A DNA stretch of 64,000 nt, taken from assembly GCA_021813905.1 (NCBI GenBank), contig JAKAJH010000010.1, positions 1 to 64,000 of the forward strand, in the 5' to 3' direction. Made by a program: the position numbers and the translations under genes. Positions 54,054 to 61,337 of the stretch are shown here, piece by piece; positions within the stretch are counted from its first letter, which is position 1; every line of letters starts with the position of its first letter. Under the pieces are notes generated by a model. That model saw only the letters and a program-made list of their open reading frames with translations, was not told the DNA's origin and ran no database searches. The DNA comes from Bacteroidota bacterium. GTDB lineage: Bacteria > Bacteroidota > Ignavibacteria > UBA10030.

Positions 54054-56405
54054 TCACTCTCCGTCGTTGTCTTCGTCCGCTGCCCGCGAGAAGATCGAGT
54101 ACCGCGGCGCAGGCATCGGCGTTCCCTTCACCGCCCGCCAGATAATCTCGCTGAACAGCCGGTCCGGCGCCTCATCCTCGCGGCGCAGATCGATACCGTT
54201 CATCAGTTCCTGCCCCATCGTTCCCCGCGTATTGCGCGCTTCCAGACTCACGCGCGGCTCTTCGACGGTGTAGCCGGTCCCGGCCGGCGACTTCGCGAAC
54301 AGCCGGTGCATCGGTGTCGCGGAGGCGTCATACTGACTCATCGGCGGTATGCCGAGGATGAGTTCGATCGTCCGCAGCATGGAAGCGGTCGTGTACAGCG
54401 TGTGGTCCACGCCGTGTCCCTGCGTGTAGGGACTGATCACCAGCGCGGTGGAGCGATGGGCATCGACATGATCGGGGCCGTTTTGCGCATCATCCTCAAG
54501 CACGAAGATCGCCGTCTGCTTCCAGTACTTGCTGCGGGCGATCCGCTGGACGATCAGGCCGAGTGCGTAATCGTTCTGCGCCACGTACGCCGACGGCGTC
54601 AGGGCGCCCTTCTTTGCGCCGGCCGTGTGATCATTCGGCAGGTGCATGACGCAGAGCTGCGGCAGGTTCCCGTTCCTTTCGAACGACGAGAACTCCCGCT
54701 CCCACTCTTTGTAGCGGTCCACGTCCGAATACTCCAGATCCCATCCCCGATAGAGCGGGTCGAAATGTCCCGCGAGCTTCGGATCGCGCGGCGTTCCGGG
54801 CTGACCGACCGTATCGCTCGCCGTGATGAACTCGCCGTAACTCCGCACCGAGACACCCGTGCGGAGGGCCGCCGACCAGAGGAATCCCGCCGCCGGCCAT
54901 CCCGTCGGTTCCGTCCCTTCGAACACGTACTCGCCGCCGCGTCCGCCGTACTGCGTCGGCCAGCTCTTCTCAATGAAGTCGGTGGCATAGCCGCCCATCG
55001 ACCAGTTGTGTCCGTCGGCGCTCACTTCGGCGTTGACGTAGAAATTGTCGAGCAGACCGAACTGGCGCGCGAGCTTGTGCCCGTTGGGAGTGACGGACGC
55101 GCCGAAGAGACACAGCGACGAATCACCGTTCCCTTCCGGCATGTCGCCGAAGACCTGGTCGTACGTCCGGTTTTCCCGGATGATGTAGAAGACATGCTTG
55201 ATCGGGGATTTCCGTCCCACCGCCGACGGAATGACGCCGTTCGACCGGATGCCGGTCTTCAGGAGCGAGGCCTGCCGGTACGGCGTGTTCGCGAAAACCT
55301 GCGTCGAGTACATCACCAGCTGCTTCTCGGACGGGAACGGGATGATGGAATATGATCCGGGGAGCAGACTGGCGATGTATTGCCGCTGCGGATTCGGAAG
55401 AGATCTCTCTCCTTTGCCGTTCAGCACCAGCAGCGTTCCATCCTCCTTCACGAGGACTTTGGTCGGATACCAACCGACCGGAATGAAGCCGACCGGTTTC
55501 GGCCGATCCGGACGCTTTACCGAGATCACCGTGAGCGAATTATTGTCCGCGTTCGCGGCGACCACGAACGGCTTGCCGGGCACCACTGCCACGGAGTTGG
55601 TCGTCGAGCCCTCCGGTGCGTCAGGATGGATAGCAGTCCCGACGGAGGCAACCGCGGCGTGTTCCTTCAAATCGATGACGGAAACCGTGTTGTCATTCGC
55701 GCAGGCGATGTACGCGTACCGGCCGTCGGGCGAGACCGTGATCTCGTTCGGATGCTGGCCCGTGGCGCATTCATACGCCTTCGTCCCCTGCCGATACACG
55801 ACGAAGGCCTTGGAACCCCAGAGCGTTACGCCGACACTGCCGTCCGGCAGGAAGGCGCAATCGTACGGCATGCCCGGAAGCCGGATGGTGGATTGCCGGC
55901 CCGTGCGAAGATCGTGCGTGCGAAGGGTGCTGTCCTGACGGAACACCACGGCCAGAATTCCGTCATGGACATCCAGCCCCGCCGCGGCACCGATGTACGC
56001 CGGATTGGGCTCAGCAAACCGGATCGTGTCGCGTGCGACCAGTCTTCCGGAATCGATCGCGAACACATACACACAGTTCTGATATCCTCCCGACACGTAC
56101 AGCAGGTTGTCCGAAAATCGCAGGCCGTACCACGCGTCCGCCAGACGAACGCGGCTGGTCTCGGTGTTCGTCGTCAGATCGATGAGCCGAAGCTCCGCTT
56201 TGGACTCACCACTGTGCGAGACGGCCAGGTAGCGTTCGTCAGGAGAGAGCGCCGCGTTCATCGGAAAGTCGCCCAGAGGGATCTGCGTCCCGGCAGGTGA
56301 CAACCACCAGCCGTTGGGAAGCAGGACGCGACCGGCGTTCTCGCCGGGAATCTGAGCTGCAGCCAGAGAGGCAACCAGAACAACCAGTGCAAGTGCGTGT
56401 TTCAT
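54054..56405 (-). CDS. YncE-like beta-propeller fused to phosphoesterase (alkaline phosphatase-family)
   Basis: 783 residues from ATG at 56405 (AGAGGA upstream). Signal peptide at 1-17. N-terminal half is a seven-bladed propeller of the YncE type (ALSPDERYLAVSHSG, TVSPDGRYAYIACANDNTVS, DLKEH). The C-terminal half is a phosphoesterase/acid-phosphatase-like domain with FYIIRENRTYDQVFGDM, SADGHNWSMGGYATDF, FVLEDDAQNGPDHVDAHRS and LVISPYTQG. Probably periplasmic. Last gene of the head-group-type operon; its stop abuts the convergent TPR-REC gene without spacer. Confidence 0.85.
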   Translation of the reverse strand: MKHALALVVLVASLAAAQIPGENAGRVLLPNGWWLSPAGTQIPLGDFPMNAALSPDERYLAVSHSGESKAELRLIDLTTNTETSRVRLADAWYGLRFSDNLLYVSGGYQNCVYVFAIDSGRLVARDTIRFAEPNPAYIGAAAGLDVHDGILAVVFRQDSTLRTHDLRTGRQSTIRLPGMPYDCAFLPDGSVGVTLWGSKAFVVYRQGTKAYECATGQHPNEITVSPDGRYAYIACANDNTVSVIDLKEHAAVASVGTAIHPDAPEGSTTNSVAVVPGKPFVVAANADNNSLTVISVKRPDRPKPVGFIPVGWYPTKVLVKEDGTLLVLNGKGERSLPNPQRQYIASLLPGSYSIIPFPSEKQLVMYSTQVFANTPYRQASLLKTGIRSNGVIPSAVGRKSPIKHVFYIIRENRTYDQVFGDMPEGNGDSSLCLFGASVTPNGHKLARQFGLLDNFYVNAEVSADGHNWSMGGYATDFIEKSWPTQYGGRGGEYVFEGTEPTGWPAAGFLWSAALRTGVSVRSYGEFITASDTVGQPGTPRDPKLAGHFDPLYRGWDLEYSDVDRYKEWEREFSSFERNGNLPQLCVMHLPNDHTAGAKKGALTPSAYVAQNDYALGLIVQRIARSKYWKQTAIFVLEDDAQNGPDHVDAHRSTALVISPYTQGHGVDHTLYTTASMLRTIELILGIPPMSQYDASATPMHRLFAKSPAGTGYTVEEPRVSLEARNTRGTMGQELMNGIDLRREDEAPDRLFSEIIWRAVKGTPMPAPRYSIFSRAADEDNDGE

Positions 56406-56419
56406 GAAAGTCCTCTGCA

Positions 56420-57304
56420 TCATTCGGTGAACAGATTGGTCCGGCGGACAAGAATGAACTTGCGATACAGCACGCAGCCCGCCCAGACGGCATTCAGAAG
56501 AAAGATATTCACGATCAGGTACAACTCCAACTGTCCGACAACGGAGAAGAGCATCAGCAGGAACAGCTCCGTCCCGAAACCCAGAAATCCCGAGAGACGC
56601 AGTCCAACGCGGTCCGCGTACCAGGTTCGCGTCGCAGCGGAATCTCCGGCTCCGGCGTGCCCGCCCAGCGACCAGTAGTCGATCGCGAGCATCAGCCGAT
56701 CTTGCCATCCATAGATCATCTGGAAGATGCGCTGCAGTGTCAGCGTGGTCCGGTCCCCGCGGAGGTCGTCCGGCGTGATCTCTTCGGTGATCCGGTTATT
56801 CTCGTAGCTGTCTTTCAGATGAAGGAATCGCGCCTGATAGTAGACATGGTAGGAAACGCGCAACGAGATCCCGATCAGCCCCGCCAAGGCGGCGAGAGCC
56901 CAGATCGCGTCGCCGGAACGACGGACCAGCAGCCAGCCGATCGCGCCAAAGACCGCCACATCCACCACAAAGTCGCCGATGGAGTCCAGAAAGCGCCCGA
57001 TACGGCTGTACTGCTGCTTCGCGCGCGCCAGCTGGCCGTCCGCGGAATCGAGCACATCCTTCAGCGTGACCAGAAGTCCCGCCGTCGCGATCGCACCGGC
57101 TGTACCCTGCAGATAGACCACGGCGGCCGCGATGCCGGCCACGGTCGAGGCGATCGTCACCTGGTTCGGCGTGACTCTTGTTCGGTACAGCGCCCATACA
57201 ATCAGCCCGGCGATCGGGCGCAGCAGCCAGGTGTTGATGAGTTCGTCCGCGATGTCGGACTTGAGAGACGCGCGGTAGGAGTACGTGGCGGCAGCCGTGG
57301 CCAT
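56420..57304 (-). CDS. CDP-alcohol phosphatidyltransferase family protein
   Basis: 294 residues with about six membrane helices. The diagnostic DGxxAR-x8-GxxxDxxxD motif is present: ADGQLARAKQQYSRIGRFLD followed by SIGD. It transfers a phospho-alcohol from a CDP-alcohol to another alcohol, or the reverse, to build phospholipid or phosphodiester head groups. It starts three bases after the nucleotidyltransferase, which could supply its CDP substrate. Confidence 0.92.
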   Translation of the reverse strand: MATAAATYSYRASLKSDIADELINTWLLRPIAGLIVWALYRTRVTPNQVTIASTVAGIAAAVVYLQGTAGAIATAGLLVTLKDVLDSADGQLARAKQQYSRIGRFLDSIGDFVVDVAVFGAIGWLLVRRSGDAIWALAALAGLIGISLRVSYHVYYQARFLHLKDSYENNRITEEITPDDLRGDRTTLTLQRIFQMIYGWQDRLMLAIDYWSLGGHAGAGDSAATRTWYADRVGLRLSGFLGFGTELFLLMLFSVVGQLELYLIVNIFLLNAVWAGCVLYRKFILVRRTNLFTE

Positions 57305-57307
57305 GCC

Positions 57308-58087
57308 TCAGTTCTTTCCGATCCCGGCCATGGTTTCTGCCAGCCGGTGGGCATGCGCCAGATCATCCGGCGTGTCGATCTCCACGACCGGCCGATCTCC
57401 AATATCGACGGCATGGATGCGCGTGCCGTTGCGGATCAGTTCCTGGAACGATGCCTCGTAGAATTCCGTCCTTCCCTCACCGCTTCGGACCCGCCGTTCC
57501 AGCGTCTGGAACAGCCTCTGCGCGGTCTCCGGTGTGAACACTTCGAGTCCGATCGACTCTCCATACATCTGCGCCATCGGAACATCCTTTCCGATGGAAG
57601 CAATGGTCGCGTCGGCGTTCACGGATACCCGGATCTCTTCTTCATCGTGGGTTCCCCGCACACGAACGGCGGCGCAATCCTCTCCCGCCCGCTCCCGAAG
57701 GGACGTCAGGATCGACGGATCGAACAGAATATCACTGTCCGACAGCAGAAATCCCTGCGCGATGCGGCCGTCACGGTCTTCGCAATGCGGACGCGCGAGG
57801 AGCAGCGAGTACGCGTTGTTGGTACGTTCAAAATAAGGATTAGCGAAGAAACGGATGCGTTCGGACGGGTACGTCGCGCGCACGAATTGCCGGATGCGTT
57901 CGGCGTGAAATCCGACCACAATGGCGGGATACGTGAAGCCGTGAGCGAGCAGCGCGTCGAGAATCCACTGCAGGATCGGACGCCCGCCCACCGGCAGGAG
58001 ACATTTCGGCGTTTCGTCCGTCAGCGGCCGGAGCCGGACCGCACGTCCCGCGGCCACGACGATCGCACGCGAGAGGATCTCGCTCAT
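57308..58087 (-). CDS. Nucleotidyltransferase (phospho-alcohol/sugar-phosphate type)
   Basis: 259 residues. NTP-transferase opening AIVVAAGRAVRLRPLTDETP followed by KCLLPVGG, where the usual AAGxGxR Gly is Ala; Mg-binding Asp in LLSDSDILFDPSIL, and NPYFERTNNAYSLLLA typical of LicC/inositol-phosphate or phosphonate cytidylyltransferases rather than of sugar-1-phosphate enzymes. Overlaps the PLP-enzyme gene by ATGA. Likely activates a small phospho-alcohol with CTP. Confidence 0.85.
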   Translation of the reverse strand: MSEILSRAIVVAAGRAVRLRPLTDETPKCLLPVGGRPILQWILDALLAHGFTYPAIVVGFHAERIRQFVRATYPSERIRFFANPYFERTNNAYSLLLARPHCEDRDGRIAQGFLLSDSDILFDPSILTSLRERAGEDCAAVRVRGTHDEEEIRVSVNADATIASIGKDVPMAQMYGESIGLEVFTPETAQRLFQTLERRVRSGEGRTEFYEASFQELIRNGTRIHAVDIGDRPVVEIDTPDDLAHAHRLAETMAGIGKN

Positions 58088-59142
58088 GCGTTCCCTGTGC
58101 GGACGAAATCGTTCAGCGCGTTGAGCAGCCGGTTCATGTGTTCGCGCGTGCCGATGGTGATGCGGAGACAGTCGGGGAATTCCTTTTCATCGAACAGCTT
58201 GACCACGATGCCGGCAGTTCGAAGATGAGCGTGGAGCGGTGCGGACGATCCGGTCGGTACCCGCACCAGCACGAAGTTCGCGTCCGAGCGGAAGCAAGTG
58301 GAACCCGGCCGGGCATCAAAGAACTCGTAGAGACGACGCCGGTCTTCCATCATGCGTTCCCGCATCGCAGCGTAGTGCGCCGGTGCATCGAGCGCCGCCA
58401 GCGCCAGCACTTCGGACACGCGGTTGTATCCGAGGTAGCGTGACGAGAATTTCGCCAGGCGCGTCAGGCTCGCTCCGGCAGCGGCGTAGCCCACGCGGGC
58501 TCCGGCGAGTCCGAAGTACTTCGAGAACGTGCGAAGGACGAGGATATTCCGGTACTGGCCGACCAGCTCTGCGATATGCTCGTTCGATTCGTCGGCAAAT
58601 CCCCAGTACGCCTCGTCCAGGATGACAATGCTCTCGCGGAAGGCTTCCGTCAGCCGGCGAAGATCTGCGTCCGGGAACGAATTCCCCGTGGGATTATTCG
58701 GCGAAGCGATCAGAACGACCCGCGGCGACTCGCGCTGATAGAGCGAGATGATCTCATCGGCATCGTACACGAACCGGTCGCCCTGTTCGCGGAGCGGGAA
58801 CGTCACCGTTTCGCCGGCGACCTCGGAGGCCACCGTCTGGTAGTACCACCACGACTGCGACGGGCACAACACCTTCTCGCCGGGACCGACGTAGCAGTGT
58901 ACGACCTGCTTGAGCATGTCCTCGCTGCCTTCGCTCAGCAGGATCTGCTTCTCCGGTACCTTCAGCTCGGCCGCCAGCCTCTCAGACAGCCTGCTCTTCA
59001 CGCCGCGGAGGTAGTCGCGGGAATAGACGCTCAGCTCTGCGATGCCGACGGTGCGGAGCGCGTCAAAGCAGGCCGGCGCGGGACCGTAGAGATTTTCGTT
59101 CCGGTCGAGGTAGAGCAGATCCGGGGAGGTCCGGACATTCAT
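58084..59142 (-). CDS. HisC-like class I/II PLP-dependent enzyme
   Basis: 352 residues. Opens LYLDRNENLYGP, the histidinol-phosphate aminotransferase-like start; ASPNNPTGN, VILDEAYWGF, PLP lysine in LRTFSKYFGLAGARVGYA and the C-terminal Arg in CLRITIGTREHMN. Could be HisC, but no other his genes are near; the same fold includes threonine- and serine-phosphate decarboxylases (CobD-type). With the neighbouring nucleotidyltransferase and CDP-alcohol enzyme, production of a phospho-amino-alcohol is an attractive alternative. Confidence 0.8.
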   Translation of the reverse strand: MNVRTSPDLLYLDRNENLYGPAPACFDALRTVGIAELSVYSRDYLRGVKSRLSERLAAELKVPEKQILLSEGSEDMLKQVVHCYVGPGEKVLCPSQSWWYYQTVASEVAGETVTFPLREQGDRFVYDADEIISLYQRESPRVVLIASPNNPTGNSFPDADLRRLTEAFRESIVILDEAYWGFADESNEHIAELVGQYRNILVLRTFSKYFGLAGARVGYAAAGASLTRLAKFSSRYLGYNRVSEVLALAALDAPAHYAAMRERMMEDRRRLYEFFDARPGSTCFRSDANFVLVRVPTGSSAPLHAHLRTAGIVVKLFDEKEFPDCLRITIGTREHMNRLLNALNDFVRTGNA

Positions 59143-59164: not shown

Positions 59165-60199
59165 TCACGTTTCGACAACCCACGGCTCCAGAAGGTTCTC
59201 GCCGATTCCTTCGATGAACCGCGACGGTTTCGTCAGAATGAGTCCGCTTTCGCGGTCATACACGTTCATCGGATAGGTGATGATGAGATGCTGTTTCGCC
59301 CGGGTGCAGGCCACGTACATCAGGCGGCGCTCTTCTTCCATCTCCGCATCGCTTGCCGCGGCGCGCATCGCGGGGAACCGCCCTTCCAGCGCATAAATCA
59401 CGAACACCACGCTCCATTCCAGCCCTTTGGCGCTGTGGATCGTGGAGAGCGTGAGGAATTCCCGCTCCGGACCGGGGGCTTCGATGTCCGCCACACTCTC
59501 GGTCGGCGGTTCGAGCGCAAGATCCGTCAGCAGTTCATCCACCGTCTTGTAGCGCTCAGTAATGTTTTGAAACGTTTCCAGGTCCTTGCGCCGCTTGAGA
59601 TGGTCGTCGTAGCGGGCCCGGAGGATCGGTTCGTAGTACTGCATCACGTGAAACGCTTTCTCTGCGGGCGGGACGGAAGGAGCTGCGACCTGCTTCAGCA
59701 TCGTGAACAGGCTGCGGATGTTGTCCGGGTAGTTTCCGTAGTCCATCCAGAACTTCGTCGTCGCGGTCACTGCCTCCTTGAATTCCGTCGCCAGCCCGAC
59801 GCGCTTCTTCAGGATATCATCCACCACCTTTTCCGCCGTGCGCGGTCCGACGCCGTCGATCAGCAGCAGGATGCGGTTCCACGATACCACGTCGCGCGGA
59901 TTCTCCAGCACCCGCAGGTACGCGATCACATCCTTCACGTGCGCCGTTTCGATGAACTTGTACCCGCCGTACTTGCGGAACGGCAGGTTCGCCCGCGTCA
60001 GCTCGATCTCGAGGTCGAACGAGTGAAACGACGAGCGGAAGAGCACGGCCATTTCCTCGAGCGGAATCCCCTGCTCCCGGAGCTCGAGGATCTTCTGCAC
60101 GACGTAACGGGACTGCATGTTCTCATTCTCGGTCGAGACCAGCTGCGGCAGCTGCCCGCCGTCCTTCCGCGTATAGAGCTCTTTGGTGTACGTGCGCAT
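59165..60199 (-). CDS. UvrD/Rep-type helicase, C-terminal half (split gene)
   Basis: 344 residues, beginning at ATG 60199 that overlaps the stop of the N-terminal half (TGATG). Carries domain 2B/2A: MAVLFRSSFHSFDLEIEL, FRKYGGYKFIETAHVKDVIA, motif V LSTIHSAKGLEWSVVF and motif VI MYVACTRAKQHL. These complete the motif set missing from the upstream ORF. The sum of both halves, about 681 residues, equals a normal UvrD/PcrA. Either two subunits or one protein broken by a frameshift. Confidence 0.88.
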   Translation of the reverse strand: MRTYTKELYTRKDGGQLPQLVSTENENMQSRYVVQKILELREQGIPLEEMAVLFRSSFHSFDLEIELTRANLPFRKYGGYKFIETAHVKDVIAYLRVLENPRDVVSWNRILLLIDGVGPRTAEKVVDDILKKRVGLATEFKEAVTATTKFWMDYGNYPDNIRSLFTMLKQVAAPSVPPAEKAFHVMQYYEPILRARYDDHLKRRKDLETFQNITERYKTVDELLTDLALEPPTESVADIEAPGPEREFLTLSTIHSAKGLEWSVVFVIYALEGRFPAMRAAASDAEMEEERRLMYVACTRAKQHLIITYPMNVYDRESGLILTKPSRFIEGIGENLLEPWVVET

Positions 60200-61212
60200 C
60201 AGCCGGCCTCTCCCTCGGGCGGCGCCGGCAGCGTGCCGCGCCGGAGGATCTCGTTTGCCAGATTCAGGATCGGCTGGGTGCTCCGGAAGTTCTCCTCGAG
60301 CTTGATCACGCGGCAGTCAGGGAACTGATCGCCGAACGACAGGATGTTCTCGATCGTGGAGCCGCGGAACGAGTAGATGCACTGCGCGTCGTCCCCCACC
60401 ACCATCACGTTCCGGTACTTCATGGCCAGCTGGCGCACGATCTCCGACTGCATCCGGTTGGTGTCCTGATATTCATCCACCATCAGATATTTGTACCGGT
60501 CGGACAGCGTCAGCCGCACGGGCTCGTGCTCTTTGAGCAGGCGCGCGAGGTTGAGCAGGAGGTCGTCGTAGTCCATCAGGTTGTGTTCGCGCTTGTAGCG
60601 GACGTAGATCTCCTGAAGCATCCGGATGTCGGTGAGCTGCTCGAGATACTGCGGATAGTCGGCGGCGAGGATCTCCGGGACAGGAACCAGCGTGTTAACG
60701 GCGCGGCTGAAGATGTCGAACAGCGTTTCTTTCCGGGGGAACCGGCGCTCACGCGTGTCGAGCTTCAGCCTCGTGCGCAGCAGATTCACGACATCTTCCG
60801 CATCCGTCTGGTCGAGGATGGTGTAGTTCGCCTCGTAACCCAGCAATCCGGCATGACGCCGGAGGACGGAATTCGCGAACGAATGAAATGTACCGCCGGA
60901 GACCTGCTCGCAGCGGCTGTCCAGCAGCATGGATGCTTTGCGCAACATTTCCTGCGCCGCCTTGCGGGTGAACGTCAGCAGAAGAACGGCATCGGGCTTG
61001 ACGCCGAGTTCGACCAGATAGGCGACGCGATAAACGATCGTGCGGGTCTTCCCCGTCCCCGCCCCGGCAATGATCAGGTGCGGGCCGTTGACGGAGGTGG
61101 CCGCTTCGTACTGTGCATCATTCAGCTCCTTCCGGTAGTCGATGCGCAGGTGGTGCGGTTGCACCAGGTGGAGGTGGTCTCCGGGAAGCGGTTTGAGCGT
61201 GAATTTCTTCAT
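60199..61212 (-). CDS. UvrD/Rep-type helicase, N-terminal half (split gene)
   Basis: 337 residues. Domain 1A/1B with LNDAQYEAATSVNGPHLIIA, Walker A AGAGTGKTRT, motif Ia LLLTFTRKAAQEML, motif II LMVDEYQDTN, motif III VVGDDAQCIYSFRG and motif IV LEENFRSTQPILNLANEI. It stops after a short Pro-rich tail (GTLPAPPEGEAG) that has no counterpart in intact UvrD. The natural chain should run on into the next ORF at 60199. Upstream of 61212 lies the divergent ackA promoter region, so the start is MKKFTLKPL. Confidence 0.9.
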   Translation of the reverse strand: MKKFTLKPLPGDHLHLVQPHHLRIDYRKELNDAQYEAATSVNGPHLIIAGAGTGKTRTIVYRVAYLVELGVKPDAVLLLTFTRKAAQEMLRKASMLLDSRCEQVSGGTFHSFANSVLRRHAGLLGYEANYTILDQTDAEDVVNLLRTRLKLDTRERRFPRKETLFDIFSRAVNTLVPVPEILAADYPQYLEQLTDIRMLQEIYVRYKREHNLMDYDDLLLNLARLLKEHEPVRLTLSDRYKYLMVDEYQDTNRMQSEIVRQLAMKYRNVMVVGDDAQCIYSFRGSTIENILSFGDQFPDCRVIKLEENFRSTQPILNLANEILRRGTLPAPPEGEAG

Positions 61213-61337
61213 GCGATGGATCGAAGATACGCCAAATTGCACTGAAAATGAAGCCGGCGGTCCCGTTGTGTTTCCGGCAAGAAAGCCGTACGTTGAATCC
61301 GCCGGATTACCTCCGGCTCCTGCTTTCTGTCCAATCA

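Follow-up and report, generated by a model that had tools for sequence, protein, structure and literature searches.

Three adjacent genes from an uncultured member of the Ignavibacteria, encoding a HisC-fold PLP enzyme, a cytidylyltransferase (NTP) and a CDP-alcohol phosphotransferase, probably constitute a de novo Kennedy-type pathway for a CDP-amino-alcohol head group that runs alongside PssA and Psd. We base this proposal on the gene content, the protein families, the conservation of the trio and the distinctness of its PLP enzyme from HisC, and from these we infer the substrate, the acceptor and the product. Bacterial aminophospholipids are usually attributed to the CDP-diacylglycerol route via PssA and Psd, and the head-group-activating routes in bacteria mostly depend on scavenged choline. 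The trio would be a second amine-phospholipid route, so far undescribed, in uncultured Ignavibacteria; we found no description of it in the open-licence papers that we searched. If the proposal is correct, a de novo route beside PssA/Psd would provide a large uncultured lineage with either a separately controlled lipid pool or a new head group.

Organization of the locus

The window analyzed here is a 64-kb stretch of a 3.08 Mb draft genome, whose relatives are Ignavibacteria/Ignavibacteriales metagenome-assembled genomes. Its minus strand carries four genes between 54054 and 59142 (Table 1), all of which we confirmed as real and at the coordinates given by the initial annotation. The junctions are as tight as had been described there (ATGA or very short): the PLP and NTP genes share a 4-base ATGA overlap, the NTP and transferase genes are separated by a 3-base gap, and the phosphoesterase has an overlapping start, ATGATG, at the transferase stop. 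The 884-aa length of the phosphoesterase open reading frame is simply that obtained with the longest in-frame start; the protein itself, of about 789 aa and with a signal-peptide-like N-terminus, begins near 56423/56420.

Table 1. Genes of the head-group locus in the window
Gene product	Coordinates	Strand	Length	Features
HisC-fold PLP enzyme	58084..59142	-	352 aa	PF00155 (Aminotran_1_2) 6.8e-48
Putative LicC/PntC-type cytidylyltransferase (NTP)	57308..58087	-	259 aa	Pfam NTP_transf_3/NTP_transferase 5.4e-12
CDP-alcohol phosphotransferase	56420..57304	-	294 aa	Integral membrane; PF01066 (CDP-OH_P_transf) 3.7e-12
Secreted propeller-phosphoesterase	54054..about 56423	-		PF04185 Phosphoesterase 4.2e-14 and Lactonase-type propeller (Pfam)

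Located 22 bases upstream of the trio are two same-strand genes that represent the halves of a UvrD-type helicase (59165-61230, minus strand), with the N half (PF00580) and the C half (PF13361) encoded by adjacent genes. About 20 Ignavibacteria loci share this split, with the two halves overlapping slightly at one extreme and lying about 316 bases apart at the other, which suggests that the gene fission is stable.

The PLP enzyme is distinct from HisC and CobD

The PLP enzyme scored 244.3 bits against the hisC profile TIGR01141, below the cut-off of 276.55, whereas the other HisC copy in the genome scored 361.7 bits, above the cut-off. Contig 35 of the same genome contains a complete hisG-D-C-B-A-F operon, the genes of which were named by reading their sequences, with HisC confirmed by its profile score. 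The genome's own HisC grouped with E. coli HisC, and in a tree of 52 sequences 27 trio PLP enzymes formed a single clade (100/100) separate from both HisC and CobD. The score against the cobD profile TIGR01140 was 151.2 bits, again below the cut-off (290.55). Of the reference sequences used for comparison, Salmonella CobD was checked against 1lc5, E. coli HisC against a stretch of 1fg3, and LicC against stretches of its sequence only. We rejected the identification of the PLP enzyme as HisC based on its score, its own clade and the separate HisC within a his operon, and its identification as CobD (threonine-phosphate decarboxylase) based on its score and the separate CobD clade. The initial annotation had made its reading depend on the PLP enzyme not being a true HisC and the only one of the genome, and phylogeny and the hisC search bear it out on this point. 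Its suggestion of a CobD-like decarboxylase survives in part: CobD identity is not supported, a decarboxylase role is possible, and an aminotransferase acting on dihydroxyacetone phosphate (DHAP) fits about as well.

The catalytic residues of the PLP enzyme (K208, D176, Y179, R216, N150 and R327) are invariant. At the position of E. coli HisC Arg322, all 27 trio enzymes have a Lys (K315), and the position of Tyr20 is empty in 23 of the 27 and a Tyr in none. We take Tyr20 and Arg322 (E. coli numbering) to be substrate-site residues of HisC. Further changes on the substrate side, from HisC to the trio enzyme, are Tyr110 to Trp98 and Tyr243 to Leu237. The best structural match of the enzyme model (pLDDT 87) was HisC (Z 38.7), followed by CobD (35.7) and the decarboxylase SMUL_1544 (6oux, 32.9). 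These comparisons of sequence and model point to an enzyme that is related to HisC and whose substrate has changed. The whole clade is likely annotated as HisC, and this is an annotation that would be corrected if our proposal is true.

The cytidylyltransferase and the CDP-alcohol phosphotransferase

When NTP was compared to the PDB by sequence, the top two matches were LicC (1jyk, 1.8e-24) and PntC (6pd1, 3.3e-23). The best structural match of the NTP model (pLDDT 93.5) was PntC (6pd2; Z 32.8, rmsd 1.9 over 242 residues), with a Z score more than 4 above that of every other family listed; LicC, at 28.0, was level with sugar nucleotidyltransferases at 28.2, and the T. maritima inositol-1-phosphate CTP transferase scored 27.5. 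Family and fold both support a predicted LicC/PntC-type cytidylyltransferase. The substrate of PntC is a primary amine, 2-aminoethylphosphonate, and Glu196 and Glu104 lie near the amine (PMC6697681). E211 and D117 of NTP align with these two sites in a profile alignment, and MAFFT shifts E211 by four residues; the placement of E211 at the amine-contact position of PntC E196 is thus alignment-method dependent and tentative.

The transferase scored 47.3 bits against PF01066 (cut-off, 22), and the motif DxxDGxxAR(8x)GxxxDxxxD is complete in the window's protein (residues 86-111), as well as in the aligned relatives that we read. Its best NCBIfam match was the bifunctional inositol-phosphate cytidylyltransferase/DIPP synthase, at 68 bits against a cut-off of 580. 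It represents one extra member in a genome that also encodes PssA and two PgsA-like proteins, of which PssA and one PgsA exceeded the curated cut-offs and the second PgsA-like protein fell below. In the transferase tree, the window's transferase type formed one clade (100/99), and a second type, CDP2, about 25% identical to the first (CDP), was not resolved as one group.

The trio is conserved in several gene orders

We surveyed 61 genomes, including the window's own, using orthologue cut-offs of E<1e-50 for the transferase, E<1e-80 for NTP and E<1e-130 for the PLP enzyme. Close orthologues of the transferase, mostly 55-67% identical, were present in 38 genomes, NTP in 34 and the PLP enzyme in 29. 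Every one of the 29 PLP genomes also contained the NTP gene, and a relative of the transferase was present in all 34 NTP genomes. The nesting of PLP within NTP has a naive p of about 1e-12, a value that treats genomes as independent and ignores relatedness. Outside the order, the NTP gene was found in eight of eight PLP genomes, at a separate locus in three of them, and so PLP never occurred without NTP in either set. The PLP enzyme was present in only 16 of the 395 genomes of a phylum sample, all 16 in the same class.

In the window's family the gene order is PLP-NTP-CDP, downstream of the uvrD halves; in family f6 it is CDP2-PLP-NTP-CDP; and in other families of the class it is PLP-CDP2-NTP, behind a LysE-type gene. 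In most loci, the PLP-NTP pair adjoins one or the other of the two transferase types. Since the association persists in varied orders and surroundings, the link goes beyond inherited synteny. The initial annotation had made its reading depend on conserved clustering, and the trio does recur in many related loci; the four-gene operon that it proposed is narrowed to these three genes. The phosphoesterase adjoins the transferase in just nine or so loci, each with uvrD-type surroundings, making it an optional neighbour that is accessory at most. In two genomes the PLP gene adjoins gap and pgk, which hints faintly that the enzyme is linked to triose phosphates.

Not every transferase has these partners. 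Five of the 61 genomes contain NTP and the transferase but lack the PLP enzyme. In five genomes of family f3 (loci L053, L056, L064, L065 and L067), two transferases stand in tandem and both PLP and NTP are missing; lone transferases occur in several loci. Because these five f3 genomes and five PLP-less genomes keep the transferase, it can work without PLP and NTP, perhaps on another CDP-alcohol or with other suppliers, and such genomes are the main weakness of the head-group pathway reading. More distantly related transferases of Gemmatimonadota and Zixibacteria had no NTP or PLP neighbour. Those of Gemmatimonadota (L121, L123, L124, L125 and L126) adjoin an apparent 6-pyruvoyl-tetrahydropterin synthase-like gene and a gene for a large protein, with no cytidylyltransferase.

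Proposed pathway and alternatives

We propose that the HisC-fold PLP enzyme would produce a small phosphorylated primary amine. The likeliest candidates for this product are phosphoethanolamine, formed by decarboxylation of O-phospho-L-serine, an option that we consider plausible although short of probable, and serinol phosphate, formed by transamination of DHAP, which we rate slightly lower. Sequence data favour neither reaction for this enzyme. NTP would then couple the phospho-amino-alcohol to CTP to give a CDP-amino-alcohol, as its family and fold support, and the CDP-alcohol phosphotransferase would transfer the phospho-amino-alcohol onto a hydroxyl group of a lipid, in the simplest case diacylglycerol. 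The initial annotation had recognized here a fold set for making, CTP-activating and attaching a phospho-amino-alcohol, and the Pfam families and folds indeed match an amino-alcohol head-group pathway.

That annotation had also envisaged a CDP-ethanolamine-type route distinct from PssA/Psd. The fold set fits such a route, but PssA and an adjoining Psd are both found in the window's genome (Psd in 60 of the 61 surveyed), making it a parallel route; replacement of PssA/Psd by the trio was rejected. Since both genes are present, the trio is not needed for phosphatidylethanolamine, and it would either supply a second route to this lipid or yield a different head group. The former would be redundant given PssA and Psd, which counts against the pathway. 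For the latter, DHAP could be converted via serinol phosphate and CDP-serinol to phosphatidylserinol on diacylglycerol (serinol being 2-amino-1,3-propanediol); this specific version is rather unlikely but, if true, would mean a head group drawn directly from glycolysis.

Alternatively, the acceptor of the amino-alcohol might not be a glycerolipid: candidates are ceramide, a glycan or lipopolysaccharide and, by analogy with di-myo-inositol-phosphate synthesis, a small solute. The sequence cannot reveal the acceptor of the transferase, its best NCBIfam match is the DIPP synthase family, and the products of PntC and LicC are thought to be destined for cell-surface glycans or lipids (PMC6697681). 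However, the transferase is an integral membrane protein, the closest described clusters that pair an NTP with a CDP-alcohol phosphotransferase are proposed lipid makers (PMC9246714), and no glycosyltransferase or LicD-type gene was recognized as recurring alongside the trio in the loci compared, leaving such an acceptor unlikely. It is improbable that the transferase is of the CDP-diacylglycerol type and unrelated to the product of NTP, with the PLP-NTP pair making a CDP-amine for another use. The f3 tandem transferases and the lone transferases would fit this view, which is countered by the relative of the transferase in 34 of 34 NTP genomes and by the PLP-NTP pair adjoining either transferase type in most loci.

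Versions of the pathway that depend on other precursors lose support because the necessary genes are absent. In a lipid pathway based on CDP-inositol or another polyol, like those proposed for Bacteroides vulgatus and Rhodothermus, the PLP gene would be incidental. Such a pathway would use the same pair of NTP and CDP-alcohol phosphotransferase genes (PMC9246714), and the NTP fold is also near the T. maritima inositol-1-phosphate enzyme. But myo-inositol-phosphate synthase (MIPS) was absent from the window's genome and from every trio genome among the 61 searched, and PLP is never found without NTP; we rejected the inositol pathway for the absence of MIPS and regard it as quite improbable. Only three genomes encoded MIPS, all of family f3 and without PLP and NTP; in these (L127, L128 and L129) it lies near further CDP-alcohol phosphotransferases, similar to Bacteroidetes inositol-lipid clusters. 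A phosphonate pathway, in which the PLP enzyme would be a non-orthologous aminoethylphosphonate transaminase and NTP a PntC, is very improbable, despite the closeness of the NTP model to PntC and the PEP mutase-family genes in some relatives. The initial annotation had seen no PEP mutase, and our pepM search of the genome likewise found no usable copy; the genome holds just a broken fragment that resembles isocitrate lyase. Many trio genomes lack PEP mutase, and six trio genomes of genus g10 (84-99% completeness) had no PEP mutase-family match, so this pathway is largely refuted and was rejected for most genomes. The fragment (contig 21, 11537-11936; L130) appears to be a gene of the PEP mutase/isocitrate-lyase family that is broken between two frames, its central part being absent or shifted. 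A choline/ethanolamine kinase of family PF01633 was found in none of the 12 genomes tested, the window's included, in a search limited to PF01633; a kinase-fed Kennedy pathway is thus unsupported for PF01633.

Comparison with known systems

We presume that the Campylobacter jejuni proteins Cj1436 and Cj1437 are HisC-like PLP enzymes. In the synthesis of the Campylobacter capsule, PLP enzymes convert phosphoserine to phosphoethanolamine (Cj1436, a phosphoserine decarboxylase) and form serinol phosphate from a dihydroxyacetone compound (Cj1437), which we read here as DHAP (PMC12409886); these are the products proposed for the trio. The likeness is one of described reaction, and in Campylobacter the products are linked as amides to a sugar of the capsule instead of being activated with CTP. 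Treponema denticola PntC-AEPT (PMC6697681), like the trio, pairs a PLP enzyme with a LicC-like cytidylyltransferase, and PntC is the closest fold to NTP. Its PLP domain, however, is a class V type AEP transaminase that needs PEP mutase, whereas the trio has a HisC-fold enzyme and no PEP mutase.

The CDP-inositol cluster of the Bacteroides vulgatus type, composed of an NTP transferase, a CDP-alcohol phosphatidyltransferase and a HAD hydrolase (PMC9246714), shares the cytidylyltransferase and the CDP-alcohol phosphotransferase with the trio, as does the route to CDP-inositol lipids in thermophiles that the same work cites. In both the CDP-inositol clusters and the proposed route, it is the head group that is activated instead of the lipid. 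The former include MIPS and a HAD enzyme, the functions of which are not confirmed, whereas the trio lacks MIPS and has the HisC-fold PLP enzyme in its place. As proposed for the trio, the Kennedy (CDP-choline/CDP-ethanolamine) pathway employs a CTP-activated phospho-amine and a CDP-alcohol phosphotransferase, and so do the versions of it in bacteria that are based on LicC. The known versions begin with a kinase acting on a scavenged amine; here no PF01633 kinase was found in the 12 genomes tested, and the PLP enzyme is the proposed maker of the phospho-amine.
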